Source: an uncultured Cycloclasticus sp. (lineage in GTDB: Bacteria > Pseudomonadota > Gammaproteobacteria > Methylococcales > Cycloclasticaceae). Taken from it: a stretch of 64,000 nucleotides of DNA. The stretch covers positions 124,001 to 188,000 of the forward strand of contig CAJXOJ010000001.1 of the NCBI GenBank assembly GCA_913057515.1, given 5' to 3'. Positions 21,053 to 38,823 of this stretch are shown in pieces. Each line of letters begins with the position of its first letter. The stretch's first letter is position 1. Under the pieces are notes generated by a model. That model was not told the DNA's origin, ran no database searches, and saw only the letters and a list, made by a program, of their open reading frames with translations. A program made the position numbers and the translations under genes.

Positions 21053-22378
21053 TTATTTACTAGTACGTTTCTCATGATTTTTTATGAAGAAAACGGCCAG
21101 TGCTGTAAAAAAGCACAGCGCACCAAACACAATAAAGTTAACATTCAAGCCAAAGGATGCAGCCACGAGGGCACCTGCCACCAGTGGCCCAACAATTGAA
21201 CCTAATCGACCTATCCCTAACGCCCAACCAACACCGGTGGAGCGAATATGAGTTGGGTACATATAACTGCTGAGCGCATTCAAGCTCACTTGACCGCCTA
21301 CAATAAAGAGACCAGCAAAAAAGGACAGTATCATCACCATACTAAGTGATGAACCAAATTGACCGACCGCCATCATGCTGATTCCAGCCAATATAAAGCA
21401 AATTGTTAATACTTTCTTTGAACCCCAGTGAGGAATGATTTTAGCTAATATAAAGGGAGAAATTGCCCCACCGATATTCAAAATAACAACCGTTTTAGTT
21501 GCCTCGCTTAACTGATAACCAGCCTCTACTAACAATGTTGGAATCCAGCTATATAGGAAATAAGCCACCATTAAGTTGCAGAAAAATACCGCCCATATCA
21601 ACAAGGTATCCATATACCGCCCTTCCATAAACAAGGCTTTTACGGGAAAGTGTTTCTCAACAGGGTGATGATGAAATACGCTGTCTTCCTTAATATCGTG
21701 CCGACGTTCTATCTTTTTTGCAATGCTACACAGCAACTTGTCATTATCATTGTCATGTTCTACTAAAAACCGAGGTGATTCGGGTAAGAAAAGTATTAAT
21801 ATTGGAACCAATAATAAGGGCATGATTCCACCCACGTAAAATAAAGAAGGCCAACCATACGCTGGAATAATCTCTGCGGCCACTAAGCCCCCCGTTATAC
21901 CACCAATTGGCATACCAAGAAAAATCACGGCAATGGCAATATTCCTCTGGCGAGTTGATACATATTCGGTCATCAGTGCCATAGCATTTGGCATTGCCCC
22001 ACCTAAGCCAAGACCAGTAAGAAATCGCAGCAGAACAAGGTCATTATAGTTATCGATGAAGCCCGTCAGTAAGGTACATAAACCAAATACAAATACACTG
22101 AAAATAACGGCATAACGTCGACCAAACTTATCACCAACCGGCCCTAATATTAGCGCGCCTAACATCATTCCGAACAAGCCCGCTGAGAAAACATAACCGA
22201 GCTCGCTTTTAGGTATCCCAAGCGCCTCACTAAGGTTGGGCGCAGCGAAGGCAATCGCCAATATATCAAAGCCATCAAAAATAATAATAAGTGCGCAAAA
22301 AAACATCACCAGTCGTTGAAAAGAACCCAGTGGGTTTTCTTCGATAATGGCGGCCATATCTAATGCTTTATCACTCAT
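21053..22378 (-). CDS. MFS transporter, aromatic acid:H+ symporter (AAHS) type
   Basis: A 441-aa 12-TM permease. The conserved MFS loop is GPVGDKFGRRYAVIFSV between TM2 and TM3, and RFLTGLGLGGAMPNAMALMTEY follows, as in PcaK/BenK-type carriers. DGFDILAIAFAAPNL in TM1 carries the DGxD motif typical of the AAHS group. The probable substrate is an aromatic or related organic acid; which one is not determined. Its ATG overlaps the stop of the DUF5519-like gene by 4 nt, so the two are co-translated. Confidence 0.85.
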   Translation of the reverse strand: MSDKALDMAAIIEENPLGSFQRLVMFFCALIIIFDGFDILAIAFAAPNLSEALGIPKSELGYVFSAGLFGMMLGALILGPVGDKFGRRYAVIFSVFVFGLCTLLTGFIDNYNDLVLLRFLTGLGLGGAMPNAMALMTEYVSTRQRNIAIAVIFLGMPIGGITGGLVAAEIIPAYGWPSLFYVGGIMPLLLVPILILFLPESPRFLVEHDNDNDKLLCSIAKKIERRHDIKEDSVFHHHPVEKHFPVKALFMEGRYMDTLLIWAVFFCNLMVAYFLYSWIPTLLVEAGYQLSEATKTVVILNIGGAISPFILAKIIPHWGSKKVLTICFILAGISMMAVGQFGSSLSMVMILSFFAGLFIVGGQVSLNALSSYMYPTHIRSTGVGWALGIGRLGSIVGPLVAGALVAASFGLNVNFIVFGALCFFTALAVFFIKNHEKRTSK

Positions 22379-22851
22379 GACGCAACTCCCGAAGCAGCTT
22401 TAGCATTCATCAATGAGGCATCAACTATCTTCAGCACCGTATCCATTTCTTCAATATTTCTTGGCGCATAAACTAGCGCAATCGTGTCAGGAATAGGGCC
22501 TTTTCCCGCAAGTGGGTGTTGTTCGCCCCATTGACTATCAACGACTGTCTTAAAATCGCCTTCAGATAAGGCCACATGTAAACTTCCATCATAAGCTGGA
22601 TGAATATGCGCAAACTCACGACCGATCATAAAACCGCTAGCACAATTACATGCCTGATCTTCGTTTAACCAAAGCGCTTCTGCACCTGGCACAGAAATAA
22701 TGCTGGGGCGGCGGCTCACCTCATCAAAATGGAATAACTTATCTTTAAATAACTGATGACACTCAGCACTTGGAGTTTGCGTTAATTGTTCATGTGGGTT
22801 GGTATTCGTCGTTTCTGGACGTTCGCCTTCTCGGGTAGGTATATTCAACAT
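22375..22851 (-). CDS. DUF5519 ('luciferase'-domain) family protein
   Basis: A 158-aa soluble protein. SVPGAEALWLNE, EFAHIHPAYDGSLHVALSEGDFKTVVDSQWGEQHPLAG and LVYAPRNIEEMDTVLKIVDAS match the small family annotated as DUF5519 or 'luciferase/phospholipase'. HIHP with the following DGSLH is its hallmark. Function is not known; the luciferase label comes from a distant fungal similarity. It is coupled to the downstream AAHS-type carrier, which suggests a joint role in handling a small organic acid. Confidence 0.7.
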   Translation of the reverse strand: MLNIPTREGERPETTNTNPHEQLTQTPSAECHQLFKDKLFHFDEVSRRPSIISVPGAEALWLNEDQACNCASGFMIGREFAHIHPAYDGSLHVALSEGDFKTVVDSQWGEQHPLAGKGPIPDTIALVYAPRNIEEMDTVLKIVDASLMNAKAASGVAS

Positions 22852-22905
22852 GTTCTGCCTTATATTATAATTTTAATCCAACAATAACTTAGCTTACACT
22901 AACTC

Positions 22906-23079
22906 ATGAGTCGTTATCGACCCCCAGCAGCACCAAAATCCCCTTATATTACTAAAAACGGCTTTCAGCAATTACAAGCCGAAGAAAAAACCTTATGGTT
23001 AAAACGTCGAAAGGTCGTCACAGCATTATCCGCTGCCGCTGCCGCTGAGGGTAATCGGTCAGAAAATGCAGAGCAGTAG
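22906..23079 (+). pseudogene. greB: greB 5' fragment (resident copy, truncated)
   Basis: 57 codons opening MSRYRPPAAPKSPYITKNGF, the unmistakable N-terminus of a GreB transcript-cleavage factor. It runs through the basic/acidic coiled-coil start to GNRSENAEQ and then stops (TAG 23077). Normal GreB is about 160 aa and continues ENAEYIYGKK. The missing C-terminal half reappears in the same orientation at 36983-37294, so this looks like the left stub of a gene split by inserted DNA. A 6-bp inverted repeat GCAGAG/CTCTGC straddles the break. Confidence 0.85.
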
Positions 23080-23389
23080 CAAGAACTCTGCCCTTCAGAT
23101 TAACCTACTAATAATTGTGTACAATCAATAAAATAGAAATAGCACCAGACTACTAGCCTACATACTATTTGCAGAAAATAGCGTGAAGTCCCAATTCCAC
23201 TGCTAACCTATATAAATACAACATATATTTGGTCCCAGTTAGGTCCTTATGAATACACTCTCTCGACAAATGCATCAACCACCTCGCTAAATTGATAGCA
23301 CCTAAAGCATTGCTAACAGGAATAAGCACAGTATCGACTCAGCTCATTCCCCAGACATGAGTAACTATAAAACGAGTTAGCAAACACCA
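23080..23389. other. Intergenic, left edge of the greB-interrupting segment
   Basis: About 310 bp between the greB stub and the stop of the OmpA-domain gene. I see no gene, tRNA-like sequence or recognisable transposon end. No T-rich hairpin follows the OmpA-domain gene. Confidence 0.5.
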
Positions 23390-26300
23390 CTACCACTTCC
23401 CAATCACATTAAAGAACACTCCATTATTGTCATAATCTAGGTCAGTTAAATTGTCAGAGAAATCCGTGAAATTGTAGCCCACACCCGCTTTAACGTTCTC
23501 TCCAAAGTGGCGATAAATAGCGGCAAGAAAACCCACCCTTCTATCCTCTGCTTCATCAACATCAAGGATACGTCCCTCAATAAGGGCATCCCAATGTCTC
23601 ACAACATGCCAATCCAAGCGCAAAACCCCTAACTGGGCCGTACTTTTAAACCAATCACCATCCCCGCGCCCTGCACGAAGTTCTCCTACACGAACAGCGT
23701 ATTTACCACCCAGCGACCAACGAGGTGTTAAGTCATAGGTTGCATCAACCGCAAATACATGGCTACGCTGTTCAAATTCATTTTGTAACCCACCGGCCGT
23801 AAACTGATCTGATGGTGCTTGGTCAGCTAAATACTTGTACTCTAACAACGCATTAAACCGATCATTATCTACTGGGCGATAAGCATACCCCGCGATAGCT
23901 TCAATAAAGTCTGCATCAAAAGTACTCCCATCGCTACTATCACTAATTGCAAAGTCCAGTTGTAAACGCATCCTCCAATCCGGATCCAACATATAAGCTA
24001 AGTGGTTCTGAGAGAGCCAGTTATGACGAACGCTTCCATCATTATTGTCCCGTCGAAACTCAAAGTTACCCCCATACTTCACATCATTACGCACATAGTC
24101 TGCTGAAATACTCGCCGCACGACGCTGAATTTCACTGCTATCTGTATTGATATGCCCATTTTCAATCGCAAGGCCAAATTTCCACTCCTCATTGGGTGTT
24201 AAATCCACACCATATGAATGTGTTAACCCTTCACCATTATCACCGTGCAGCAACTGCTCCTCACCGTAAACACTCACCCAATCAGAGTAGCGGGTACGCA
24301 TTCCTGATACCAGTTTACCCTGTCTATTTCCAATGCCACTATTGGCATTGTCAGGATCCAGCGCATAATTCAGATACGTAGTCGTACGGTCTGACAAACG
24401 ATAATCTGCACCCATTAGTACGCCAAAACCTCCACTGCCTGAAGAGCCCTCGGCTTTAAGCCCTAGGCGGTCATTAAGTTGGTAGTGCCCACCAACACCT
24501 GCGCGATTATTTTTATTTCGGTCACCACTACGGTGGATGGTTCCTTGGCCAAAACCGTAGACGCCCCAGTCATGATCAATCCCATAATCAGCCTGAATAA
24601 CTAGGTCTGCACGATTTCCATCATTATTATTGCTACTACTCACGATACCACCGTTATCTTCACGACTATCTGCTCGTAGACCAGCACTGACTGACCAATT
24701 ATCACTAATCGTATGACGCACATTTGCTTCAGCAACCTCTTTATCGATACCATCATTCTGGTTTGTTAAATCAAGCTTAATATCGAGTTTGTCTTTTTCT
24801 GTTAAAGGTAAACTAATGCTTCCACCAAACTGTTTTGTATCGTAATTCGTTAGCTGTCCGGGAGCCGAAAAGCCCTCACCACGGCTACGTAAATAAACAT
24901 GGCCTTTGCCATCTATTTCAAAGCCTAAGTCAGTAAACTTGAAACCACTTTCCAGTTGGTAGGCATCAGCTGATTGCTTATTAGTGGGCGTGATAGCTGT
25001 TGGACTAAAACTTAAACCACCATCTAGGGAGTTAGTGGACCCTACACCTGGGCCTTCTGTTTTTGCTGCTTCTAACCGAAGGTATGTATCTGCCGTTTTG
25101 CGGTATAGAAAGTCAATTCCAGAGAGGTTCTGATCCTGCTCTAATCGTTGCTGGTGTGAACCAGTAATACCCAGCCTGACTGAATCATTCAACCAATGTG
25201 TTACTCTGCCGCCTACAGCCAAATCACTAAAATCAGATAGATCACCAACATACTCATAATCAACAACTAAATAGACCGGATGTCCTGAATAGCTTCCTGC
25301 CCGAACCAACTGGCTGTCATCTGCTGTTGAGGGAAGTGGGCGTGTTAATAAAATCCGCCCTTGAGTAGCACTCTCTTGATAGTCTTGCCCAGCAACCAAC
25401 ATGTTCACACTAAGGACAATACCAGAATCTTTATCACGTACCTCTACCTGAACACGCTCTGAGCCTGTGACGATATCTTGATGTTCAAGATAGTAGAGGG
25501 AACCACCTGTGCCACGAAAATCATCTCGTGCCGCCTGAGTTCCAGGTTCAGCTGCGAATAGGTTTATATGCGTATTGCTTTCACTACGTGATGTAAATGA
25601 TTCACTCTTCCAGTCGATAACTGCCCCATACAAGGCTCGATTAATCTGTGCCAAATCGGTTTCTTGTTGAACAATCTTAAAGTTCCCCCACATTGCGTGC
25701 GAGCGCTCATCTTCAATCTTCGCGTAAAACTTGCCTTGTGTTGGCGCATCTTCAACTAACGTACTGTCATCGCCATACGTTGGGTAATAGGCCGTATCAT
25801 CAAGACGGCGTAACAAACTTCGTGGGTCTTTATCCATGAATGTCGAGAACAGGTCTTCTAATGGCTGCTCTCGTGTATCAGCACTCGCCGTCACGGTATA
25901 TTTATCGCGCCACTTTCCTTTCGTATAAAAAGCAAGACGACCATCAACGAAACTATGGTCACTTAGGTGCTGTTTATCCTTTGTTACCTCTATAGCTGCA
26001 CCATCTGTTTTGTAACGTCCTGCTGTCAAATCAACAAGGCCGACATAAAACCAGTCTTGCGTTTTAAATTCAATATCCCGCCAATATAAAACACCATTAT
26101 TTTTATCATCAAGAGCCGCTACTTCAATAGTATGACGACCATTAGGCACAATTTGTTGGGCTACAAACTTCCTATTGCTCCCAATAGGGACAGGTTTACC
26201 CATAAAGTAAATATTTTGCTCCACTGGTATTGAGCTACCGCTAATCGTCACCGTACCCCCTTGCACCGGAATACTTTGCTTCTCTAAGCGTGTTTTTCCG

Positions 26301-27517
26301 TAACCCACTAAATGAGCTTGTTCAGCTGGTAGTTGCTCATCATCTTTTACTGTTTTATGTTTGCCAATCTGCCATAGAGGTAAACTGGTTGTTTCATCAA
26401 AACGGCCATCTTTATCGTAAACACGCAGACGGTACAGTAACTTCTGTGGCTGCTTTGATGGCGAAACCCATTGAGCGCTCAATGCATCATTCAGTTTAAT
26501 AATCGCTAGCGGCTCACTTCTCGTAGACTGTTTTTCTGAAAACAGGCGTACTTCAGCCCGTTCTATCCAGGCAAGGTAGTTACTAAAGCCACTAAATTTA
26601 ACAGACTCTCCAGCCACAAAGGTTGCAGGCCATACGCTAACATCCAACATTGGCTTTGCCGACAAATTATCATACTGCATTCGAATATTATCTTTTGACA
26701 GCACAACATCTGTACAACGCTGAATATTCTCACTATCTTTTGCAGAGGTACCTTGTCGCTCACCATCAACACTGATTGAAAAGCCATCAGGTGAGCTGGC
26801 CGCTTGCATCACAACTCCCTTACAAATTAGCTGTTGGCTCAGCGTCATTCCCTTACTGGCTAATACTCCCTTTGGTTTCGCCTTCGTGTAGCTAAGCACA
26901 ATTTCAACACGGCGATTTTTGGTCATCCCCTGCGGTGTTGCATTACTCGCAATGGGCTCTTCACTTCCTTTCCCAATAGCGGTAATCGCATCATCAGGTA
27001 AATTTAAAGTTTGCTGAAAAAATTGTGCAACTGCTTGCGCACGCGCTAAAGATAATTGCTGGTTATTTTTATACCAACGCTGTGCTTTTAGGGACAACGA
27101 CTGGTTATCTGTATGCCCGTTAACTTGCATTGAAAGGTTTTGCTTATCTTTTAAATAACTAATCAGCTTTTCAATACCATCCGCTTTACTGGGATCAAAA
27201 ACCGCACTCCCAGAAGGAAAACCGACCTTAATCTCCTTTAAATCGTCATTTACGTAACCACCGGCGGTTATCGGTGGAATAAGAGGTAATGACCATAGTG
27301 TCACATTCTCAGTCACTAACAAGCGTTCATTATTTTCAGCAACAGCCACAACTCGTACGCCGCTATCATCCTTATGAGTCGCCTCCTCTCTCCATTGTGG
27401 GTGTTCGCATTCTTTACTCTCGTTATTCAATGTCGGACACGATTCATTTGCATACACCAATGATGGTGCCAAAAAAAATGAACTGGTTATTAGTAAACCT
27501 CTCCAAAAGCGACTCAT
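23390..27517 (-). CDS. OmpA-domain/beta-barrel outer-membrane protein, partner of the DUF11 giant
   Basis: A 1,375-aa protein with signal peptide MSRFWRGLLITSSFFLAPSLVYA. An OmpA-like peptidoglycan-binding domain lies at about 95-215, with GFPSGSAVFDPSKADGIEKL, NGHTDNQ, LSLARAQAVAQFF and KNRRVEIVLSY. A beta-rich middle region follows at about 220-540. The C-terminal part (about 560-1375) is rich in alternating, aromatic-ended strands and finishes VFFNVIGKW, as an outer-membrane barrel does. The domain order is the reverse of classical OmpA, whose barrel is N-terminal. Its ATG shares one base with the stop of the DUF11 protein (TAATG) and has GGAGAG upstream, so the pair is co-translated. Function unknown; surface display or anchoring of its giant partner is inference. 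Confidence 0.8.
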   Translation of the reverse strand: MSRFWRGLLITSSFFLAPSLVYANESCPTLNNESKECEHPQWREEATHKDDSGVRVVAVAENNERLLVTENVTLWSLPLIPPITAGGYVNDDLKEIKVGFPSGSAVFDPSKADGIEKLISYLKDKQNLSMQVNGHTDNQSLSLKAQRWYKNNQQLSLARAQAVAQFFQQTLNLPDDAITAIGKGSEEPIASNATPQGMTKNRRVEIVLSYTKAKPKGVLASKGMTLSQQLICKGVVMQAASSPDGFSISVDGERQGTSAKDSENIQRCTDVVLSKDNIRMQYDNLSAKPMLDVSVWPATFVAGESVKFSGFSNYLAWIERAEVRLFSEKQSTRSEPLAIIKLNDALSAQWVSPSKQPQKLLYRLRVYDKDGRFDETTSLPLWQIGKHKTVKDDEQLPAEQAHLVGYGKTRLEKQSIPVQGGTVTISGSSIPVEQNIYFMGKPVPIGSNRKFVAQQIVPNGRHTIEVAALDDKNNGVLYWRDIEFKTQDWFYVGLVDLTAGRYKTDGAAIEVTKDKQHLSDHSFVDGRLAFYTKGKWRDKYTVTASADTREQPLEDLFSTFMDKDPRSLLRRLDDTAYYPTYGDDSTLVEDAPTQGKFYAKIEDERSHAMWGNFKIVQQETDLAQINRALYGAVIDWKSESFTSRSESNTHINLFAAEPGTQAARDDFRGTGGSLYYLEHQDIVTGSERVQVEVRDKDSGIVLSVNMLVAGQDYQESATQGRILLTRPLPSTADDSQLVRAGSYSGHPVYLVVDYEYVGDLSDFSDLAVGGRVTHWLNDSVRLGITGSHQQRLEQDQNLSGIDFLYRKTADTYLRLEAAKTEGPGVGSTNSLDGGLSFSPTAITPTNKQSADAYQLESGFKFTDLGFEIDGKGHVYLRSRGEGFSAPGQLTNYDTKQFGGSISLPLTEKDKLDIKLDLTNQNDGIDKEVAEANVRHTISDNWSVSAGLRADSREDNGGIVSSSNNNDGNRADLVIQADYGIDHDWGVYGFGQGTIHRSGDRNKNNRAGVGGHYQLNDRLGLKAEGSSGSGGFGVLMGADYRLSDRTTTYLNYALDPDNANSGIGNRQGKLVSGMRTRYSDWVSVYGEEQLLHGDNGEGLTHSYGVDLTPNEEWKFGLAIENGHINTDSSEIQRRAASISADYVRNDVKYGGNFEFRRDNNDGSVRHNWLSQNHLAYMLDPDWRMRLQLDFAISDSSDGSTFDADFIEAIAGYAYRPVDNDRFNALLEYKYLADQAPSDQFTAGGLQNEFEQRSHVFAVDATYDLTPRWSLGGKYAVRVGELRAGRGDGDWFKSTAQLGVLRLDWHVVRHWDALIEGRILDVDEAEDRRVGFLAAIYRHFGENVKAGVGYNFTDFSDNLTDLDYDNNGVFFNVIGKW

Positions 27518-30500
27518 TATTTCTCTCCTTTTAGAGGTTGCTGAAGGGTTCGACTAAGTTGGCTCGCTAATAACTCCTCTTCAATGGTTAATTCATAATT
27601 ATTACAGTCACATTGTTGCCATGCATCAGTCGTTTTGCTTACAAATAACTTCATCCGCTGACGCGCTTCTGATTTATCTTCTGCCTGTGACATCACATAC
27701 GTTAAGCGCAATAAAGATGGCTGATCCTTCAGAACCTGAATCAAATTAGTCAATTGCTTCTTAGACACAGACGTTAGCTCATCACCTTTTTCATTAAAGC
27801 TCGATGTGTTTAAATCAACTCGAATAACTCGATGTAAAGCGGCACCAAAGTTTAATTTGCCTAACTTACCCCGTGTCATTCGTACCACACGAGGGTTTTC
27901 AGTCGTTACCCGATAACCCGATGGCAACGTGCGTTCATCCAGCTTCATAATAAAGTTAGAACCATGCAGCTCATTTGGTACATCGGCACAAGCGATATGA
28001 AAGCGCCCATGGTCGTCAGTCGTTACTAATAAACCTCGAACCGTTGCAACACGTATGCCGGCTAACCCTGATTCGCCTTTATCTTGATAGCCATTAATAT
28101 TTTGATCATCAAATACTTTACCAATCAGATCCGAGCAATCAAATAAAGGGTCGGGGACAACTCTTACCATTGCAGAACCAATATTTGAAACCCTTGCGTT
28201 AGCTACCGTGTTATTTGCCCATGCCTGGTTTACATACTCGCCTTCACCCACACCTGAACCAATAATTAGAATCAGCTGAATCGTTTTCACCTCTGCCGAG
28301 ATAAACGTTAGGCCACCCCAACTGAGATTGCGGCCTGCCACTGTTGGCTCTAGCTTAGCGCCATTGATCGTCGCTGACCCTTTTACATACTTAAAGCCAG
28401 CCGGTATTTGGTCTTGCAAAGCAATATTAACCAGTGTCGCAGACAAAGTGTTTGTCGCGGTAATGTTATAAGGCACCAGCTCGCCTCGAACAACATCTTT
28501 CTTAGGCGTTGTTTTACTAACGATAATTGCCCCTTCAAGAATCGGGTCAATCGGCAAATGGTTATTAACAACCCCTACTCCTCCGAGCGTTAAGTTAAAA
28601 CCAAAGTAATACGTGGTTAGCTCTGCACCTGTTGGCGGTGTAGGTTGCAATTGAATAGCATCTACATTTGGCGCAACATCAGCAATAGGCGTATAAGGGC
28701 TACCTATTGCCTCAGGGATAATTGAAGAAGGCGCGGGTAAATATCCAGCTGGCTCAGTTACTTGCAACGTATAAACACCATTGCCTAGGCAACCGACTGG
28801 TGCGGGGTTAATTAATAAAAATTGATAGAAACCCAAAGCACCCGTCACTTGGTTGTTATTTGCACCCACTAAACAATTATTGGGAACAGGCGCGCCTCCA
28901 TCCAACAAGGTAACCGTAGCTCCTGTTATTGGTGCACGCGTAACTGAGTCGTATACAACACCCGATGGGTCAAGGGGCAAACTCTGCTCTAGTGTCGTTG
29001 TACCTGCTAACAACGTAAGATTATTAAGCGAGCCATCGATATGTTCCGCACCTGCAGGGTTATGCACAGGATGAATAACCCCACTTGTTGAGGCACCGCC
29101 TTGTTCATTCGGGATCGGCTGCCCAAGTATTGCACCACTAGAAGGCTCTAGAAACCGTACCCGATACCCAGAACCCGGTGCTAAACCGCTAAAGGAGTAA
29201 TGCCCGTTCAGATCCGTTGTTGTTGATAGCATGAGCTGATCATTTAGTAATAATTGAACAGACCACCCCTCCACAAGGGTTTCACCCACATCTTTCACAC
29301 GATCATGGTCGGTATCACGCCACACATTTCCTTCAACAGCTGCAGCTGCAGCAACTGTTGTTGGATCATCATCATCATTATTTCCTTCGAAACCAGGCGG
29401 CTCATTACCACCTGATATCACCACATTATTGACCAGAATCTGTCCTTCCAGACCACCCGTTACTGCCACTCTAAGAATAATATCACTGCCTACTCCGCCA
29501 TTTGCAGTAATAACCTGACTACTTGTACAAGTGACAATTTGCCCTACAACGCTGCATACCCAAGCGCCTGAGGTTGGCCAAGCAAAAGCGGTCATCCCCG
29601 CTGGCAAGGTATCGACAATTGTAATTACACCCGATGTATCTAATGTGCCTATATTACTGGGTGTTATTGTGTAGAAACCGGTATTAGAGCCTGCACCAAA
29701 GCTTGCAGGGCTATGTGTCTTAGTAATCGCTAAATCTACGGAGGCATCCGGTATTTCAGCAAAATTATTTTCCGCCGAAACAGTATTGGTTCCCGTCAAA
29801 GGAATTGTCGCAATGACACTTGGCGTAACAGCAGGAATGGTTACGACACCACCCACATTGCCTGCTGTCGTAATGCCACTGCTCGTACCTGTCGGTTGGC
29901 TCGGCTGGGTAACGGTATATGTTCCTTCTGGCAAGGCACTAAAACTGTAAGAGCCATCACTCGCTGTACTTGTCGTTAAACTCACAGCATTACTGTTTAT
30001 ATCGGCACCTGTTAGATTAATTGTTTGCCCACCAATTCCATGATCCGGCCCATTAACAGCACCACTGTTGTCAAAATCGAGAAACACAACCCCAGAAATA
30101 CGCCGGCCTTGAGGGATTTCAGCAAAGTTGTTAGCCTCCGCGGATGTGTTCGGTGGCAAAATAATGCTGGCAATCAGGCTTGGTAATGTTGAAATACCGC
30201 TCGCTGTTCCCGCGGTACCACCATTTCCAACCGTGCCCGCTATTGTTTGTCCATTAGATGTATTCGCTGGCTGAGAAGGCTCTCGAACTGAGTACGTTCC
30301 AGGGACCAATCCAGTAAAGCTATATACACCATTTGCATCTGTTATTGTTGTACCAATAAGCGTATTTGTATTATCCAATAACTCAATGGTGACACCTGCA
30401 ATCGCAGTATCTGCACCGTTTAGAACACCATTATTATTATCATCAAGGAAAGCCATCCCCGAAATTGTTGATGGTGCGACTTCTGAGAAATTATTCCCGC

Positions 30501-33500
30501 CACTACCACTTATTTCACCTGCCAAACCATCATCATTAATGTTGATATTGATGACCTGACTCGTCGTGCTGGTTGGATTTGAGGCTGTGCCCACAGTGCC
30601 TGTACTACTATTTGTTGACGTAATTAACCCCGCTGTCGTTGCGCCGTTATCGGTGCCCGAAGGCTGGATCGGCTCACACACCGAGTAAGCCCCTGCGGGT
30701 AATGTTGCAAAAAGGTAATTCCCCTGACTATCCGTTGTGGCCGGGTTTATAACGCCAGATACAACTGCCAACGGTGCAGAACAATTTGCCCCTGCATGAA
30801 GTTCGATAGAAACGCCTGCAATCGGCGTGTCTGTACCGCTATCAAAGCTACCATTAGGGGTTACATTATTATCTTGAAAAACCTTGCCAGAAATAAAACC
30901 CAGCGGACTAATTAACAGACTGGCATTGGCTGGTTGCTGATTAACACCCGCTGTTGTTTGTAAATCGCCTGCCGGAATATTATTAATGTGTTCTCCAGTC
31001 GTAACACCCGTTACATCAACGTTAATGGTGCAACCGCCAGCAGGAACAACCGAACCATTGGCATAACTAACCGTTCCTGCCCCAGCTGCTGCGGTGACGA
31101 CGCCCGGACAAGTTTTAGTAATATTGGACGGCGTCGCAACAACTATATTTCCGGGTGCTGTCGGCAAGGAGTCTACAAATGCGTTGGTTAATGTAATATC
31201 GCCACTATTACTGTTCTCAATAATAATCGTCAGTGTTGATGTCCCACCTCCCGGTATAACCGATGGTGAAAATTGCTTGTCGATAACTGGAGGCGTCGCA
31301 ACAACTAACTCTGCGCTCGTCGGCTCTTCATTGCTGACCCCTTCATTGGTTGTAACCGCTGTAGAGGGAACCGTATTGGTATAACTGCCAGAAATATTAC
31401 TCAATAGATCAACCGTTACCGTACAAAAACCACTGGCAGGAATCGTTGCCCCTGCCAGCTGAACGGTTGTAGCTGAGGCCAGCACATTAACAAAACCGCC
31501 TACACAGGTCGTGCTGGCATTAGGTGTTTGAGCCACCACCAAATTAGCCGGCAAGCTATCAACAAAAGTAGCCCCCGTTAATGCCAATCCATTGGGGTTA
31601 TCTAGGCGTACCGTCATCGTCACCGCAACGCCGGGGGTTGTAGAGTCCGACCCTGTTGTAAAACCAACAGGGTTACCACTATCGAGTGTTTTGTTCGTAA
31701 ATGCTTTATGGATAAGCAATGGTGCTTTTGCGCTCAGCGTATCACTGGTTGGCTGGGAGTTACTCACGGGGTTTCCGCCAGCAATTGCTGTCACCCCACC
31801 GCTAGGAATGGTATTAACATAATCGCCCTGAATCGCAACAATCACATCAATTTCCGCATAGCAAGACTCGGCGGTTGTACCTGATGATGCAATAATATTG
31901 CCGCCCGAAACATGTACTTGATTGGCAGCAGGAGAGGTGACTGTTGCGCCCGTACAGGTCGTTACTGGATTAGCACCACTGGGTACCGTAACTCCCACAG
32001 GTAAGGTGTCAGTCACTGACACATTTGCCATCGGCTGGGTAGTTGGGTTAAAGAAGCTAATTCGCAATCGCGAACGCTCTCCAGGCTTAACCACATTTGG
32101 GGTAAACTTCTTAACAACGCCAATATTGCTTTGAGTCGTTAAACTGGTTGTTGCTTGCCCACTATTGCTTAAACCCTGATCAGTTGAAATAGCACCCATT
32201 GGGATAAAGTTTGTAATACCCCCAACAGCGGTTGAAGTGACATCAGCCGTTACCGTACATGAGGCACTCGCCGCCAATGAAACTCCGCTCAGTGACACTT
32301 GCGCAGCACCTGCGACAGCTGATACCACACCCCCAACACAGGTCGTGCTCGCATTTGGAGTTGAAGAAATAGCCATTCCATTCACTGCTGTACCAGAGGT
32401 TCCATCTAGCGTAAAAAAGTCAGTGAACGACAAACTTGTTACCGCTAAATTACCATTAGTGATGGTAATTGTTAGCTGGCTGGTCTGACCGGGAAAGGTC
32501 AATGTACTTGGATTTGTTGCCTTAGCGACACTGATTGAAGTTGGCGACTGGTAATTTAAAACCGCACTAACAGCCGTAACATTTCTAACCCCTCCGTCAG
32601 CGGTGATATTGCCGCTGGGGATCGTGTTGGTCCAGTTAGCTGCACCTGTGACAACAACATCAAACAGCATGTCACATGAACCATTACCAGCAATGCTTGC
32701 GCCCTGCATGGTAATAGTGTCGGCCCCAACAGTCGCAGCAGTAAAGACAGGCGAACCTGCACAACTTGTGCTCGCATTAACTGGGTTAGCCAACACCATT
32801 CCTGTTGGTAATGGATCAGTCACGGAGACATTTGTGAGCGCCACCGCACCAGCGTTTGATAAGCGCACCGTCACACGAGACTGGCCACCTGAAGAAACAC
32901 TCGCCGGTGTAAAACTTTTGCTAGCCGCTAGTGATGACAAATAAACTAGCCGAGCGGTATTGGTACCAAACTGCGAAATTGCACCGGTGGAGCCATTGGC
33001 AAAGGTTTGCGTTCCCGCAAGTTGTGCAATATTGTCATAGGTACCCGCTGGTCCGATGACATCAACATTAAGCACGCAACTACCATTTGCACCAGTGCCA
33101 TTATTGGCACGTGCTGGCACCGTTGCGCCATTTAATGCCAGCGAACTAGTCCCTGCTACAGCGGTAATTGTCCCGCCACAGGTTGTCGAACCGTTTGCTG
33201 GGTTTGCAATTTGCAACTGCCCAGAACCATCGATAGGAAATGTGTCTGATAACGTTACATTGGTTAAAGGATTCGCTGATATATTCGTTAATGTCACACT
33301 CAGCGTGGCAATTGTCCCCTCTGACAAGGTGACGGGGCTTGTACTACCGTTAAAGCGTTTGGTCGCGGAAAATACCGTCGCCTCGGTTCGTGTTGTGCTC
33401 GGTGTTGAGTTAGCCCCTGAGCCATTACAGGTCACCCCCGCGTTATAACAGACCTCATTAGCATTAATCGTGTTAACCGTTGAAACATTATCCGCCGCAT

Positions 33501-35238
33501 TTGGGTCAACCATCACCCAAAAGTTGACCGTACAAGAGCTCGGCGAGTTAATCCCGCTTCGAGCAGGTAATGTTGCGACCGTAAATTGAGCCGAAGAATC
33601 TCCTAAACTGCTTGCCTCTGTTAACGGCCCACAAGCAGCAGATAAACTAGGATCAAAATCATTACCATTAATAACGCCCGTTAAATAGGTGAAGTTTGCC
33701 GGCAAGGAGTCATCAATGGTGACATTATTAATAACGGTTGTTGAAAAATTCTGCACCGTTACTGAATAGCGAACAGGGTTACCCGGCGCTGCTTGCGCGG
33801 GTGTTGCTGTTTTAAGCACACGCAACTCATCGGCCACCAAAACAGACGCCGAACGAGCCTGACTAATAATACCCGGGGTTGATACACCAACAGTCCCTTC
33901 TGCAATCGTGTTTGTATAGGTAACCGGAATCTGTGTTGATTGCGCTGCCGCAGTAAAATTTATAGTCACTGTACATGAGCCGTTAGCCGGAATGGTGCCA
34001 CCCGTTAAGGTCATGCCGTCACCGCTGCTTGTTACAATATCCACAGCACCACCAGCACATGTTGTCGAGCCAGCTGTCGCCACCAGACCTGAACCTAAAA
34101 CACCTGTGCCCCCCCCTATACCAACCAACCCATCAATTGGACTGTCTGTAAAGGTCGTTATCGTTAAAGGGGAATTAGCCGCATTATTGAGCGTAATGGT
34201 AAAACTATCCGCCTCCCCGCTAGATAAAACAGTGCTGGCAAATGACTTTGAAACCGTTAGTGGAGACTGGACCGTAATATTCCTTGTTGCATCACTGGCA
34301 GCAGGGATCCCTATATCATTTGTAAAGTCAGTACTTCTATCAATTCGGTTTGTTTGTGCACCTGTTGAGTAGCTTCCATCTGTACTAGCTGCTTCGATAT
34401 CAACACTGAACGTACAGCGACCATTGCTATTCCCCAATTTGGCAGGCACTGTTCCTGTTCCCATAACGCTAAAAGCCCCGGCTACAGGGTTAAATGTTGG
34501 TGCCGCTCCGCCGTTGTTACAGTTCGCAGACGCATTAGGTATTGCCGCTACTTTGATAATGGCATTAACACCTAATACTGGGAATGTATCGGTAATGCTG
34601 AAGTTTGGAATGACAACGCTATTGTTATTGGAAACGACAATCGTCAATGTAGATGAGCTATCGCCCAAACGAACAGTAGATGAAGAAAAACTTTTACTGA
34701 TCGTCGGCTGAGTTAGTGCAAGGACACCAACACTCTGACTAACTGTCCCAGAGTTAGACACTGGGGCACCATCAGTTCCCGTTACCGCAGCATCAGCAAT
34801 TGCATATGTATAAGTTGCGGCACCGCCCGTCGATGTTCCCGCTGTAACAGGAATGATAATCGTACATGTACCATCAGTATTATTCGCACGGGCCGGAATA
34901 GTCCCACCCACGAGTTTAATGGCTTGCGTATTGATTGTTGCTGTTAGAGTACCTGCGCCCCCGCCCGTAGAAGGACCTGAAGGATCTGTACACTGGTAAG
35001 TCGGCACCCCTGATATTTCTAATCCATCAGGAGACCCTGCTGGTAGCGCTGTATTAAAGGCAACTCCCGTGATATCCGACCCTGTATTACTATTACCAAG
35101 CGTAATCTCTAACTGTGTCTGTTCGCCAGGAAATATAGCGGTTGGCTGACCTGTAACAAGCGTTACAGAAGTTGTTAGTGCTGCCAATGCCTGATAAGGC
35201 ATTAAAAATAAAATACATACGCGCAGTAAAACTTTCAC
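27517..35238 (-). CDS. Giant DUF11/SdrD-type repeat surface protein
   Basis: A 2,573-aa exported protein, start GTG 35238 with AAAGGGA upstream and an N-terminal signal MKVLLRVCILFLMPYQALA. About ten DUF11 repeats of 130-150 aa span about 20-1440. Most hold a Cys pair (NASTTCVGG then GSCTV) and a DTLP-like turn. Then come three SdrD-B/Cna-B-like domains (ISGKVFQDNN, ISGMAFLDDNNNG, ISGVVFLDFDNSG), another DUF11, two further prealbumin-like domains, a DUF11 and a last SdrD domain (IGKVFDDQNINGYQDKGE). A 180-aa charged C-terminal tail ends the protein. There is no LPXTG or autotransporter domain. Composition (Ser/Thr/Gly/Ala-rich) suggests a long extracellular stalk or adhesin. Confidence 0.82.
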   Translation of the reverse strand: MKVLLRVCILFLMPYQALAALTTSVTLVTGQPTAIFPGEQTQLEITLGNSNTGSDITGVAFNTALPAGSPDGLEISGVPTYQCTDPSGPSTGGGAGTLTATINTQAIKLVGGTIPARANNTDGTCTIIIPVTAGTSTGGAATYTYAIADAAVTGTDGAPVSNSGTVSQSVGVLALTQPTISKSFSSSTVRLGDSSSTLTIVVSNNNSVVIPNFSITDTFPVLGVNAIIKVAAIPNASANCNNGGAAPTFNPVAGAFSVMGTGTVPAKLGNSNGRCTFSVDIEAASTDGSYSTGAQTNRIDRSTDFTNDIGIPAASDATRNITVQSPLTVSKSFASTVLSSGEADSFTITLNNAANSPLTITTFTDSPIDGLVGIGGGTGVLGSGLVATAGSTTCAGGAVDIVTSSGDGMTLTGGTIPANGSCTVTINFTAAAQSTQIPVTYTNTIAEGTVGVSTPGIISQARSASVLVADELRVLKTATPAQAAPGNPVRYSVTVQNFSTTVINNVTIDDSLPANFTYLTGVINGNDFDPSLSAACGPLTEASSLGDSSAQFTVATLPARSGINSPSSCTVNFWVMVDPNAADNVSTVNTINANEVCYNAGVTCNGSGANSTPSTTRTEATVFSATKRFNGSTSPVTLSEGTIATLSVTLTNISANPLTNVTLSDTFPIDGSGQLQIANPANGSTTCGGTITAVAGTSSLALNGATVPARANNGTGANGSCVLNVDVIGPAGTYDNIAQLAGTQTFANGSTGAISQFGTNTARLVYLSSLAASKSFTPASVSSGGQSRVTVRLSNAGAVALTNVSVTDPLPTGMVLANPVNASTSCAGSPVFTAATVGADTITMQGASIAGNGSCDMLFDVVVTGAANWTNTIPSGNITADGGVRNVTAVSAVLNYQSPTSISVAKATNPSTLTFPGQTSQLTITITNGNLAVTSLSFTDFFTLDGTSGTAVNGMAISSTPNASTTCVGGVVSAVAGAAQVSLSGVSLAASASCTVTADVTSTAVGGITNFIPMGAISTDQGLSNSGQATTSLTTQSNIGVVKKFTPNVVKPGERSRLRISFFNPTTQPMANVSVTDTLPVGVTVPSGANPVTTCTGATVTSPAANQVHVSGGNIIASSGTTAESCYAEIDVIVAIQGDYVNTIPSGGVTAIAGGNPVSNSQPTSDTLSAKAPLLIHKAFTNKTLDSGNPVGFTTGSDSTTPGVAVTMTVRLDNPNGLALTGATFVDSLPANLVVAQTPNASTTCVGGFVNVLASATTVQLAGATIPASGFCTVTVDLLSNISGSYTNTVPSTAVTTNEGVSNEEPTSAELVVATPPVIDKQFSPSVIPGGGTSTLTIIIENSNSGDITLTNAFVDSLPTAPGNIVVATPSNITKTCPGVVTAAAGAGTVSYANGSVVPAGGCTINVDVTGVTTGEHINNIPAGDLQTTAGVNQQPANASLLISPLGFISGKVFQDNNVTPNGSFDSGTDTPIAGVSIELHAGANCSAPLAVVSGVINPATTDSQGNYLFATLPAGAYSVCEPIQPSGTDNGATTAGLITSTNSSTGTVGTASNPTSTTSQVINININDDGLAGEISGSGGNNFSEVAPSTISGMAFLDDNNNGVLNGADTAIAGVTIELLDNTNTLIGTTITDANGVYSFTGLVPGTYSVREPSQPANTSNGQTIAGTVGNGGTAGTASGISTLPSLIASIILPPNTSAEANNFAEIPQGRRISGVVFLDFDNSGAVNGPDHGIGGQTINLTGADINSNAVSLTTSTASDGSYSFSALPEGTYTVTQPSQPTGTSSGITTAGNVGGVVTIPAVTPSVIATIPLTGTNTVSAENNFAEIPDASVDLAITKTHSPASFGAGSNTGFYTITPSNIGTLDTSGVITIVDTLPAGMTAFAWPTSGAWVCSVVGQIVTCTSSQVITANGGVGSDIILRVAVTGGLEGQILVNNVVISGGNEPPGFEGNNDDDDPTTVAAAAAVEGNVWRDTDHDRVKDVGETLVEGWSVQLLLNDQLMLSTTTDLNGHYSFSGLAPGSGYRVRFLEPSSGAILGQPIPNEQGGASTSGVIHPVHNPAGAEHIDGSLNNLTLLAGTTTLEQSLPLDPSGVVYDSVTRAPITGATVTLLDGGAPVPNNCLVGANNNQVTGALGFYQFLLINPAPVGCLGNGVYTLQVTEPAGYLPAPSSIIPEAIGSPYTPIADVAPNVDAIQLQPTPPTGAELTTYYFGFNLTLGGVGVVNNHLPIDPILEGAIIVSKTTPKKDVVRGELVPYNITATNTLSATLVNIALQDQIPAGFKYVKGSATINGAKLEPTVAGRNLSWGGLTFISAEVKTIQLILIIGSGVGEGEYVNQAWANNTVANARVSNIGSAMVRVVPDPLFDCSDLIGKVFDDQNINGYQDKGESGLAGIRVATVRGLLVTTDDHGRFHIACADVPNELHGSNFIMKLDERTLPSGYRVTTENPRVVRMTRGKLGKLNFGAALHRVIRVDLNTSSFNEKGDELTSVSKKQLTNLIQVLKDQPSLLRLTYVMSQAEDKSEARQRMKLFVSKTTDAWQQCDCNNYELTIEEELLASQLSRTLQQPLKGEK

Positions 35239-35899
35239 AAAAAATCCCTTTAATTACAGTAAAATCAGTCCCTTAGTTGGAATAAGGGGAAGTATCTTCA
35301 TTATTCTTGGACCTAAGTATAGTCAGTGTTTTTATTTTATGTCCGTGGTGAAGGTAATTACCTTTAGGGGATCGCTTTTTATTGACCAATTTCAGCACAC
35401 AAAATAAGCCCATCCCCGCGAAAAGCTAATTGGGGTAAAACATGTTCAGCGTCAAGACGAAAGGTAAAGAGAGCAACTTGAATTTAGACGCTCACAAAAA
35501 ATCTCATTCAAATAGGCAATCTATTTGTTGAGCTAAATAAACTAAATAATTTGGAAAAACTTCGTCACGAGCTAAATCAAATTCATAAAAAACCCCATAA
35601 AGACAAGAGCAAGAACTATTGATGTCACGCTGATGTTTAAGCTTCTGACTATACAACTACAGCATTTATCTGCTGAGCGGATTTAATAGGCTTTTTTCTG
35701 GTACCATCAGCACAGAGAGCATGCACATCTACTCATCAATTTAGTGTATTTTTGCTAGGTAAGTTAGCGCACAGAAGTTCGATCTATTGGTCTTCACCAA
35801 AACCATTTATACTTTTCAACTTGCTGATACCTAATAAAACAACCCTAAGCCAGTCGCTGACGACATTTCTTATTTACACCATCTAAGAAAGATACTTTT
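35239..35899. other. 660-bp intergenic region between greB-2 and the DUF11 gene
   Basis: No supported gene. It should hold the promoter of the DUF11/OmpA operon; a TATACT lies about 80 bp upstream of GTG 35238 on the minus strand, but no good -35 goes with it. An ATG-less 44-codon frame (35488-35622, plus strand) is Lys/Asn/Leu-rich and may be debris of an older gene. Confidence 0.4.
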
Positions 35900-36376
35900 T
35901 TATTCCTCTCTATATGTAATCCCTCTCACACTCCAGCGTTTAATTCCTGCTGGTATTTTTACTTCCACCTCATCATTTACTACTTTTTTTAAACATGCTC
36001 TCGCCATCGGTGAATCAACGGAGATGTAATCATTCCTGCCATATATCTCTTCTGGGCCAACAATTCTAAACTTAATGATCATCCCTTCATCATCTTCAAG
36101 CTCAACCCAGGCTCCAAAAAACACCCTTCCTTCCTGCTGGGCATGGTATTCAACAACTTTAATATCTTCCAGAGTTTTACGTAAAAACCTTATCCGCCGA
36201 TCAATTTCTCTTAATTTTTGTTTATTATACTTATAGTCTGCATTCTCACTGCGATCCCCTAAGCTTGCCGCCCAAGATACTTTTTCAGTAATTATTGGCC
36301 GTTCTTTTAACCATAATTGTTCTAGCTCTTTTTCGAGTTTCTTAAACCCTTTTTTAGTAATTAGTTTCGTCTTCAT
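35900..36376 (-). CDS. greB: Transcript cleavage factor GreB (second, intact copy)
   Basis: A 158-aa GreB that rescues backtracked RNA polymerase by stimulating transcript cleavage. An N-terminal coiled coil (about 1-75) carries the acidic tip SLGDRSENADYKYNKQKLREIDRRIRFL. The C-terminal FKBP-like domain has EGRVFFGAWVELEDD and DYISVDSPMARACLKK. It is close to E. coli GreB in length and sequence. It differs clearly from the split resident copy (MSRYRPPAAP..., SAAAAAEGNRSENAE), so it is not a simple duplicate. It lies on the opposite strand inside the DNA that separates the two resident greB halves. Confidence 0.92.
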   Translation of the reverse strand: MKTKLITKKGFKKLEKELEQLWLKERPIITEKVSWAASLGDRSENADYKYNKQKLREIDRRIRFLRKTLEDIKVVEYHAQQEGRVFFGAWVELEDDEGMIIKFRIVGPEEIYGRNDYISVDSPMARACLKKVVNDEVEVKIPAGIKRWSVRGITYREE

Positions 36377-36401
36377 ATTCTCTTAATAAATACGCGGGTG
36401 C

Positions 36402-36626
36402 TTATTTGAATGAGTATGCCCTAACCAATTTGAAAGACACTTTGTTGCTTTCAAATACCCCCCTTAAAGGCTGCTTAGCTGCAATTACACTGATTTTTGA
36501 ATGAGCTTGGAAACAGGCTCTCAAGCGCTTTTTTTCTAGTGATGTTAAGCAATTTCCAGCATCAATACTGATATTTTTATAATCGACATCCTCTATAACC
36601 ACACTAAGAGGGGCAACCTCCCTCAA
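36402..36626 (-). CDS. Small hypothetical protein next to greB-2
   Basis: A 74-aa frame starting TTG 36626, ending 25 bp before greB-2. The sequence VVIEDVDYKNISIDAGNC and VFESNKVSFKLVRAYSFK gives no family recognition, signal peptide or TM segment. The TTG overlaps the TGA of the preceding small ORF (TTGA). It could be the C-terminal part of a gene broken by a frameshift. Confidence 0.35.
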   Translation of the reverse strand: MREVAPLSVVIEDVDYKNISIDAGNCLTSLEKKRLRACFQAHSKISVIAAKQPLRGVFESNKVSFKLVRAYSFK

Positions 36627-36802
36627 TTTTTGCTGAGTCGTTTTTCATTCAAATGCCTGAATTCTTGCCAGCAAATGGTGCTTAAGGCAACTAATTTCAT
36701 CAAGCCCGCCTTCATCCTTTTGTCGGATTCTCCTAATATTTTTCTTGGTCTCGATTCCGCAAATAACTCAAATTTATAGCCCGCTCTCTTTTTATTTCTC
36801 AT
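36623..36802 (-). CDS. Small basic hypothetical ORF
   Basis: 59 codons from ATG 36802 to TGA 36623. It is strongly basic at the start (MRNKKRAGYKFELFAESRPR), followed by KILGESDKRMKAGLMKLVAL. No recognised family and no clear ribosome-binding site. It overlaps the next ORF by 3 nt. The pair may be a coupled unit or two pieces of one decayed gene. Confidence 0.3.
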   Translation of the reverse strand: MRNKKRAGYKFELFAESRPRKILGESDKRMKAGLMKLVALSTICWQEFRHLNEKRLSKN

Positions 36803-36982
36803 GCTTTACACTTATAGAACCACGCAAAAGCGCCTAAGTGTAGCAATTATCATTAAAAACATCTCTCCTCTCACAATCTAACTGATCTGCATACGCCTTT
36901 CTTGGCGGCTATTAAACACCTTTTTAAAAGACTTAATATTCACCTTTTGCGGCAATTGAAAAGCTTTCATCGTCATTTTCCA

Positions 36983-37294
36983 TATAGTGGTGAACAAATC
37001 GAGCGCCAGATTCGCTATCTTCAAAAGCGCCTCCTTAATCTCAATATCATTTTTAACAACCCAAGCTCACTTAATCAGGTGTTTTTCCAGCATTATTACC
37101 TTAGAATATGATCTTGGTGAAAAACCACCTTGCCGCATTCTCACCCTGACGAAATAAACTACCAACCTCATTACACCAGCATGGATTCGCCAGTCGCTAA
37201 GGCGTTATTTAAGAAGTATTTGGATGATGAAGTCATCGTTAATACACCTGCCGGTCAAATATCCTACATCATCATTGATATCGACTATGAATAA
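36983..37294 (+). pseudogene. greB: greB 3' fragment (resident copy, decayed)
   Basis: Three overlapping frames together rebuild the C-terminal half of a GreB. First, GEQIERQIRYLQKRLLNLNI...NQVFF (compare LREIDRRVRYL and KVFFGAW). Second, after a frame change, LEYDLGEKPPCRIL. Third, DEINYQPHYTSMDSPVAKALFKK, VNTPAGQISYIIIDIDYE and stop at 37292. Two frameshifts and loss of the upstream half show it is non-functional. Orientation matches the 5' stub at 22906. Its stop overlaps the start of ychJ, suggesting an ancestral greB-ychJ operon. Confidence 0.8.
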
Positions 37295-37769
37295 TTCCTT
37301 ATGCCCTTGTGGCTCAAATAAAGCTTACGCGCACTGCTGTGAGCTATTTATTAATTATTCACTGTTGCCAGAAACAGCGGAACAACTGATGCGTTCGCGG
37401 TTTACTGCTTTTTATTTAAATAAGCCTCAATACTTACTTAATACCCATCACCCTAGCCAACGTGAAACAGATGAATTAAATGCCATAGCAAAAGAACAAG
37501 CATCAACTCAATGGGTTAAATTAGTCATTCATCAGACAAAACTGGGGCAGATAAACGACTTAACGGGCATTGTAGAGTTTTCTGCTTTTTTTAATCAAGA
37601 AGGTCAAATGTTTGAGCTACGTGAGTCTTCAAATTTTATTCAAAAAAACGCACAATGGTTCTACCTCGATGGCGACTCGGATATTCAACACAACGAACTT
37701 AAGTTCAAACGAAATGAACCATGCTGGTGTAACAATGGGAAGAAATTTAAGCATTGCCATGGAGCATAA
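37287..37769 (+). CDS. ychJ: YchJ family protein (SEC-C motif)
   Basis: A 160-aa cytosolic protein of the UPF0225 family. Zinc-binding SEC-C motifs sit at both ends: SLCPCGSNKAYAHCCE at the N-terminus and EPCWCNNGKKFKHCHG at the C-terminus. The core includes EQLMRSRFTAFYLNKPQYLLNTHHPSQR. The start is ATG 37287, not the upstream in-frame codon at 37224, because the zinc motif begins at residue 5 from there. It overlaps the stop of the decayed greB. The biochemical role of the family is unknown. Confidence 0.9.
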   Translation: MNNSLCPCGSNKAYAHCCELFINYSLLPETAEQLMRSRFTAFYLNKPQYLLNTHHPSQRETDELNAIAKEQASTQWVKLVIHQTKLGQINDLTGIVEFSAFFNQEGQMFELRESSNFIQKNAQWFYLDGDSDIQHNELKFKRNEPCWCNNGKKFKHCHGA

Positions 37770-37839
37770 AACCCACATTGTGACTTGATTACTTAACGCA
37801 TCAGCGCATAATTAATGAATATAGTAAAGACAATAAACA

Positions 37840-38823
37840 ATGCATAAACAACCCAATACTCCACGTCCAGCTGCAAGCGAAGACTTACTGGCACAACATA
37901 TTTTGGATAGCATTGCTATTCCAACTTTTGCAATCAACACCCAACATGAAATAACCCATTGGAATAGAGCTATTGAGAAAGTTACCGGTCATCTAGCTGC
38001 CGACATGATTGGTAGCAAAAACCAATGGAAACCATTCTATAGCAACCTTCGACCCACCTTGGCCGATCTTATTATTGAGGGCTCTGAAGACCACTCTATT
38101 CGAGAGCGTTACACTAAAAAATATCAGCAATTTAACGTGGTAGATGATAAGTACGAGGCCGAAGGGTTTTTCCCTAACATGGGCATGGGCGAGTGGCTCT
38201 CTTTTACGGCGGCCCTTATTCTTGACGAAAATAACAATATTATCGGCGCAGTTGAGACCCTAAAGGTTATCAGTGACCGCAAGCACGCAGAGCAAAAACT
38301 ATTAGATAGTCAGCATAAATATCGCGAACTCAGCACGCTTGACGATTTAACTCAGTTATTTAATGCGCGACACTTTTTTGTAAAAATAGACGAAGAGATC
38401 AGCCGTAGTAATCGATATAATCAATCATTGTCCATTTGCATGCTCGATTTAGACAATTTTAAAAAGGTCAATGACACATACGGACATCAGTTTGGAAATA
38501 CTGTCCTAACCGAGTTTGCAAACATCATTAAAAGAAATATCCGCCATGTGGATATGGCCTTTCGCTATGGCGGCGAAGAATTCGTTATCCTATTCCCTTT
38601 TGTGATAGCGCAAAATGCATTGACCGTTGTTGAAAAGATTCTCACTCAGCTGGAGCACATTGATTTTAAAGCAGACAATGGCGATATTGTTAATGTTACC
38701 ACCAGTGCTGGGCTTGCTACCTATCGTGCTAAAGAAGGCCAAGATAGTTTTATTAAACGGGCTGATAAAGCAATGTACCAATCAAAATCTAATGGCAAAA
38801 ACCAAATAAGCATTGATGGCTAA
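37840..38823 (+). CDS. PAS-GGDEF diguanylate cyclase
   Basis: A 327-aa cytosolic c-di-GMP synthase. The N-terminal PAS domain (about 20-150) contains IPTFAINTQHEITHWNRAIEKVTGH. A short coiled linker follows, then the GGDEF domain (about 165-325) with DDLTQLFNARHF, DLDNFKKVNDTYGHQFGN and the active site RYGGEEFVILFP. The inhibitory I-site RHVD lies five residues before GGEEF, so product feedback is expected. No transmembrane segment, so it senses a cytoplasmic ligand or redox signal through PAS. Confidence 0.93.
   Translation: MHKQPNTPRPAASEDLLAQHILDSIAIPTFAINTQHEITHWNRAIEKVTGHLAADMIGSKNQWKPFYSNLRPTLADLIIEGSEDHSIRERYTKKYQQFNVVDDKYEAEGFFPNMGMGEWLSFTAALILDENNNIIGAVETLKVISDRKHAEQKLLDSQHKYRELSTLDDLTQLFNARHFFVKIDEEISRSNRYNQSLSICMLDLDNFKKVNDTYGHQFGNTVLTEFANIIKRNIRHVDMAFRYGGEEFVILFPFVIAQNALTVVEKILTQLEHIDFKADNGDIVNVTTSAGLATYRAKEGQDSFIKRADKAMYQSKSNGKNQISIDG

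Follow-up and report, generated by a model that had tools for sequence, protein, structure and literature searches.

Gamma-Mobile-Trio (GMT) islands, for which the founding paper is said to be that of Mahata et al. (2024, Nat Microbiol), are the known elements to which the locus analyzed here is most readily compared. Tn916-type elements have a tyrosine recombinase, a circular form, and a short variable coupling segment between the element end and the target; Tn916 is not known to carry a replacement host gene. That element uses many sites (PMC11838328). PMC12039261 describes two identical GMT islands in different syntenic regions of one Vibrio isolate and states that GMT elements carry defense and weapon genes. 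Islands in tRNA and tmRNA genes, as described in PMC4482086 and PMC4383910, restore the split target with their own sequence at the site. Our locus lies in a 64,000-nucleotide stretch of an uncultured Cycloclasticus sp. (contig CAJXOJ010000001.1, positions 124,001 to 188,000; hereafter the window), in which an insert of ~13.9 kb with a different, intact greB of its own (greB') interrupts the resident greB at a single codon. The insert is very probably a decayed remnant of a GMT element, belonging to a lineage that lands in greB and carries its own greB after gmtX (gmtY-gmtZ-gmtX-greB').

The interrupted greB of the window

The locus comprises the following features, in window coordinates; G plus a number denotes a genome and C plus a number a contig.

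22906..23073, plus strand: 5' half of the resident greB (N-half; residues 1-55 of the congener protein), 86% identical to the GreB of congener G017, with a stop at 23077-23079
23074..23080, plus strand: variable 7-base-pair (bp) segment between the N-half and the left end of the element, coupling-like; its position and length match those in G195, G224, and G429
23081..23110, plus strand: probable worn left end of the element, AAGAACTCT ... TACTA, with AAC 11 bp past the N-half, as in G195, G224, and G429
23390..27517, minus strand: cargo gene 2, a 1375-amino-acid (aa) OmpA-domain protein with a possible beta-barrel C terminus (Pfam OmpA, 2.7e-16; OMP_b-brl, 0.00046, below cut-off)
27517..35238, minus strand: cargo gene 1, a 2573-aa repetitive surface protein (Pfam DUF7933, SdrD_B, and DUF11)
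35900..36376, minus strand: greB', an intact element-borne GreB of 158 aa (NCBIfam GreB equivalogs, 227 and 223 bits, above cut-off; no internal stop)
36463..36847, minus strand: gmtX relic over three frames, with model residues 45-175 in order (profile hidden Markov model [HMM] and tblastn)
36995..37294, plus strand: 3' half of the resident greB (C-half), frameshifted, 62% identical to G017 residues 65-153 over 36995-37258
37296..37769, plus strand: ychJ, the resident right flank (Pfam YchJ_M-like and SEC-C on the open reading frame at 37224-37769)

The DNA alignment between the window and G017 ends at 23072 on the left and picks up again at 37010 on the right, from where it runs into ychJ. 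The initial codons of the C-half are lost, and its read-through contains two TGA codons. Four Gre matches were found in the window genome, which is ~90% complete: GreA, the two greB halves, and the intact copy at 35900-36376 on the minus strand. A full-length greB match was present in 14 of 17 congeners, 12 of which carry it directly before ychJ, and no second greB was found in any of the 17; no GreB match was found in G005, G009, or G010, the genomes of which are 58-83% complete. Genes of both flanks were recognizable at all eight congener loci read (a pair of genes with MFS and luciferase domains was absent in three and a GGDEF gene in three). The conserved flanks, the uninterrupted greB of congeners, and the break in the G017 alignment together indicate that greB was whole in the genus and was then interrupted in the window lineage. 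The intact greB' is 43-50% identical to the greB of congeners.

A first-pass annotation, made from the letters of the window, had described a resident greB split by ~13.9 kb of minus-strand DNA bearing a different greB. All three GreB pieces were recovered, and the three large genes of the insert do lie on the minus strand. That annotation proposed comparing relatives for an uninterrupted greB-ychJ, which the congeners provide, and it named relatives with the same arrangement and an ancient, vertically inherited second greB as contrary to its reading; the 17 congeners offer no example. Two of its suggestions were uninformative. The guanine-plus-cytosine (GC) content of the insert (0.448) is close to that of the flanks (0.426-0.428), and GC content is therefore not a marker of the insert, although greB' and its surroundings are at 0.36-0.38; and no direct repeat of at least 14 bases joining the two junctions was reported. 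Rfam models at gathering scores gave no match in 22000-38000. Homologous recombination between the two greB genes was considered and rejected because they lie in opposite orientations and greB' is whole.

GMT modules inside greB in other gammaproteobacteria

Searches with the intact window GreB covered seven genomes that hold relatives of the two giant cargo genes and then a class sample of 369 genomes, which yielded further close GreBs. In Methylophaga NORP65 (G314), the intact GreB is 67% identical to that of the window, and a greB C-half lies 281 bp on, on the other strand. In follow-up work, stretches of 13 genomes were read and 16 genomes were searched with a resident GreB, which located both greB halves far apart on one contig of G429, the C-half of G314, and pieces on a small contig of G632. 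Between the greB halves of G429, beside the C-half, are matches to GmtY (509 bits), GmtZ (765 bits), and GmtX (211 bits), all above the NCBIfam cut-offs, followed by greB' and then by cargo that includes a type IIG restriction-modification gene. When reversed, the order in G429 is that of the window: N-half, cargo, greB', the place of gmtX, gmtZ, and gmtY, and C-half.

GmtX matches were found in 3 of the 369 genomes of the class sample, in 5 of 311 genomes of the window's order, in 3 of 378 of the order of G681 (G681 included), and in 1 of 2 of the order of G429 (G429 itself). The gene greB' adjoins gmtX in all five GmtX genomes of the window's order and in G429 and G632, and five of these seven genomes have a host greB split at a common boundary. 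Both halves are present in G429, G195, and G224; the C-half is present in G193 and G223, the contigs of which end before any N-half. Full-length matches to GmtY, GmtZ, and GmtX occur in four of the five split-greB genomes, and in G223, as in G429, all three exceed the cut-offs. G681 has a GmtX match with no greB near it, and the GmtX matches in its order are distant (42-68 bits). In G632 (contigs C399 and C350), the module is degraded, with a stop in gmtY and the loss of gmtZ; on a different contig from the module, a resident greB has an internal deletion at the target site.

The common boundary falls between residues 55 and 56 of the long GreB form (47 and 48 in Escherichia coli numbering), and it is at this boundary that the resident greB of the window is split. 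Matches to the N-half end at residue 55 in the window and G195 and at 55-56 in G429, and the C-halves start at residue 56 (48 in E. coli) in G193, G195, G223, G224, and G429. Both junctions of G429 carry the 8-bp repeat AATATCAG, and when the flanks are fused across a single copy, the GreB frame is unbroken; in G545, a congener of G429, greB is uninterrupted and both flanks are colinear. As a control, greB was matched in 5375 of 5426 E. coli genomes and not in the other 51; in all 5375, a single place covered at least 80% of the gene.

Elements in greB end in an inverted motif, AACCCC-N-TACTA. In all three elements with a left side (G195, G224, and G429), it begins 11 bp from the N-half and its spacer is 8; in all five right ends (the same three genomes, G193, and G223), the distance to the C-half is 5 bp and the spacer is 11. 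The right junction of G314 fits it by eye. The 7 bp between the N-half and the left end vary among elements, as coupling segments do. The exact motif is absent from the window, where the left end has a spacer of 16 bp, longer than the 8 bp of the three intact ones. Whether greB' is recoded at the target motif to protect itself was also considered; the DNA comparison gave no clear sign either way.

The module also left a trace in the window. A profile built from nine GmtX proteins of the greB-carrying lineage, run on the minus strand of 36377-37000, matched residues 81-156 at 37.8 bits (E = 8e-12). Two further pieces in other frames, each insignificant alone, are colinear with it and extend the match to residues 45-175, and tblastn gave 9e-6 and 2e-5. 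The relic lies at the predicted place, between greB' and the C-half and just upstream of the greB' start at 36376, so that greB' directly follows gmtX on the same strand. The claim of the first-pass annotation that no integrase is visible holds for intact genes; the gmtX relic adds to it. The projected start of gmtX falls near the C-half, so the state of the window would be explained by one deletion of gmtY and gmtZ that also took the right end and the start of the C-half.

Could the arrangement in the window have arisen by chance, if unrelated greB-carrying DNA entered by transformation or illegitimate recombination, landed in greB, and by its redundancy let the resident gene decay? The window itself might be read in this way, as a scan of the three insert proteins showed no recombinase, searches for GmtY and GmtZ in 22900-37400 were negative, the junctions are not joined by a direct repeat, and relatives of the giant genes stand without a Gmt match at 42 loci read. 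However, the same codon junction, gene order, and end motifs recur in five other genomes, four of them with full-length GMT matches, and the gmtX relic is where these elements would place it. We consider chance insertion very improbable. An artifact of assembly or binning that joined foreign DNA into greB is less probable still and can practically be dismissed: the window genome is a draft of 97 contigs, but the two halves make up one resident gene, the C-half has decay mutations, and the order matches elements elsewhere, including those of G195 (a single 5.05-Mb contig) and G224 (a 4.39-Mb contig). Judged by gene order, greB' did not come along by chance but belongs to the mobility module, where it follows gmtX, and the GMT recombinase system is a strong candidate for the mechanism of insertion. 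The proposal of the first-pass annotation that an acquired island targeted greB, supplied a replacement, and left the old halves to decay has gained support from the shared site and order.

Circular form, GreB phylogeny, and the role of greB'

GmtX matches were found in 26 plasmid records. The four most similar (Halomonas THAF12 a and b and two from Pseudomonas) have gmtY-gmtZ-gmtX-greB in a row, as does an IMG/VR contig with gmtY in two frames; greB was annotated after gmtX in none of the six GMT loci inspected among the other 22 plasmids, the gene tables of which are incomplete. Plasmid pTHAF12_b of Halomonas THAF12 (NZ_CP045401.1; 47,894 bp) is identical, at 47,894 of 47,894 bases, to an element integrated in pTHAF12_a (NZ_CP045400.1), and its circle is closed over GGTTCTT-TGGTGTA-AAAGAACC. 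No replication gene is among its 44 listed features. From these sequences, the most plausible reading of pTHAF12_b is an excised GMT-greB element in circular form, and an integrated small plasmid would give the same picture of the two records. No GmtX match was found in phage records; 17 of them match greB'. Metal genes of copper, mercury, and cadmium/lead types are also carried by pTHAF12_b. In G206 (C1:630001-690000), the right end of a GMT-greB module abuts non-greB sequence, apparently another kind of chromosomal landing site.

A GreB tree was built from 41 of 44 rows, with G024, G059, and G626 dropped as too short. The window halves, which fill half of the columns, group with the genus's own greB (7 rows, 100/95), whereas a clade of 12 rows (96/89) unites the window greB' and the element GreBs of G429, G314, IMG/VR, G223, G195, G193, G206, G632, and Halomonas. 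Ten of 12 element GreBs are in this one clade. The two halves thus sit together in the resident clade and apart from greB', not in different GreB clades, the outcome that the first-pass annotation had named as contrary to its reading.

Several observations weigh against the assignment of the window to a greB-targeting GMT lineage. It is tied to that lineage by the order of its genes, greB', a worn left end, and a single relic gene; gmtY, gmtZ, and the right end were not recognized in the searches of the window, and the two-part test that the left end passes, with a template picked after the other elements had been seen, is passed by 0.09% of window positions. The end motif also matches elsewhere in the stretches of G195, G224, G223, and G314, and the Halomonas left end, AACCTC, departs from it. 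In G224, GmtY and GmtZ matched only in part, and the C-half lies 6 kb from gmtY, versus 109-110 bp in the others; the N-half of G314 was not found on its contig. Two of the 12 element GreBs lie outside the clade, that of a Pseudomonas plasmid just outside (13 rows, 85/73) and that of G224 elsewhere, and the clade includes G370 and G375, which have no Gmt matches nearby. The module of G206 is beside non-greB sequence, with no greB halves within the 60 kb read, and the plasmid copies likewise carry it outside greB; greB is therefore not the sole landing site. Finally, that greB' replaces the host GreB in a cell is a prediction from the sequences.

We propose the following course of events. In a first step, the element would exist in circular form, its inverted end repeats separated by a short segment at the point of closure, as seen in the sequence of the Halomonas relative. 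In a second, the GMT recombinases would insert it between greB codons after the conserved motif SENAE/D, a site seen in five genomes, thereby destroying the host gene; catalysis by GmtY and GmtZ is suggested by the family to which they belong. In a third, greB' would supply GreB function, and the host would survive and then depend on the element copy, a dependence that may help to retain the element. In a fourth, the element of the window would have brought the giant surface-protein operon and lost gmtY, gmtZ, and the right end, while gmtX was broken, greB' stayed open, and the resident halves decayed; the end state is observed, and the order of these events is inferred.

Under a different proposal, greB' is cargo that benefits the element, for example, by adjusting the host RNA polymerase to long foreign genes or during its excision; greB would be one of several landing sites, and rescue of the host would be a by-product. 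The first, second, and fourth steps are common to both proposals, which part on the third. Copies that keep greB' outside greB, in G206 and in the Halomonas element of pTHAF12_a, favor the cargo proposal. Weighing against it are the host greB split at one codon in five of the seven sampled genomes with greB' beside gmtX and the state of the window, with greB' still open next to a broken gmtX and a broken C-half. That last state fits a continued need for GreB. We regard a cargo benefit as unlikely, though well above the chance and artifact explanations.

We think it reasonably likely that, in one GMT lineage, greB serves as the landing site and has also become a core gene of the element. By disrupting greB at codons adjacent to the catalytic tip and taking over the supply of GreB, such an element would ensure that a host that loses the element greB loses GreB. 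If so, capture of greB would favor spread across hosts, and, once the element had decayed, the host lineage would be left with an exchanged greB, the window being one case and G370 and G375 perhaps two more. No significant Gmt match was found in the stretches of G370 and G375 that were read, and no second GreB was found in these genomes. The only GreB found in each belongs to the element clade, and these genes are possible domesticated leftovers. What the lineage would then offer is a landing site and end sequences that are defined, a circular form, and a simple principle, in which the element breaks a host gene and brings a spare. It would also represent a route by which a core transcription factor gets replaced by a mobile-element version. 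The Halomonas records add the caution that an entry deposited as a plasmid may in fact be an element that has excised.

The giant two-gene operon (23390-35238) has a second copy, 67-70% identical, in the window genome (contig C42) and in congener G012 (C9); homology among copies stops at the operon borders, and the flanks are unrelated. Relatives have a scattered distribution (Methylophaga, Neptunomonas, 50_400_T64, and Variovorax), the closest being in Gammaproteobacteria bacterium 50_400_T64 (78% and 73% protein identity). We attempted to trace a donor through these relatives and abandoned the attempt, since none of the 42 operon loci read has a GreB or Gmt match and the operon does not identify the vehicle. 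The cargo of the G195 element (C1:3100001-3120000) includes proteins like DrmD/DpdE and DruE, possibly a mixed anti-phage system.

Comparison with known mobile elements

GMT elements are already known. Among the literature matches listed, which do not cover the founding GMT paper, none links greB with GMT or with integration, and within that scope the greB-targeting, greB-carrying lineage appears to be new. A likeness to Tn916-type elements would lie in a tyrosine recombinase, a circular form, and a variable segment at the element end. They differ in target, as Tn916 uses many sites (PMC11838328), in contrast to the greB codon of the greB-carrying GMT lineage.

Islands in dusA and in tRNA and tmRNA genes resemble the insert in their site-specific insertion in a conserved gene (PMC4482086 and PMC4383910). 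Unlike target-restoring islands, the insert does not repair the gene that it hit: both halves stay broken in place, and greB' is full-length, diverged, in the opposite orientation, and apart from the target, beside mobility genes.

The closest likeness is to the GMT islands themselves. Relatives of the window with the same layout (G429 and G223) have gmtY, gmtZ, and gmtX together, in that order and above cut-off, and variable cargo that includes defense-like genes. The cargo is a giant surface-protein operon in the window, versus restriction-modification in G429 and DrmD/DpdE/DruE-like proteins in G195. The window copy differs from GMT islands in having a broken gmtX and no recombinase gene that the searches recognized, and the greB-carrying lineage as a whole differs from them in that its gmtX is followed by greB' and its insertion site is a single codon of greB.

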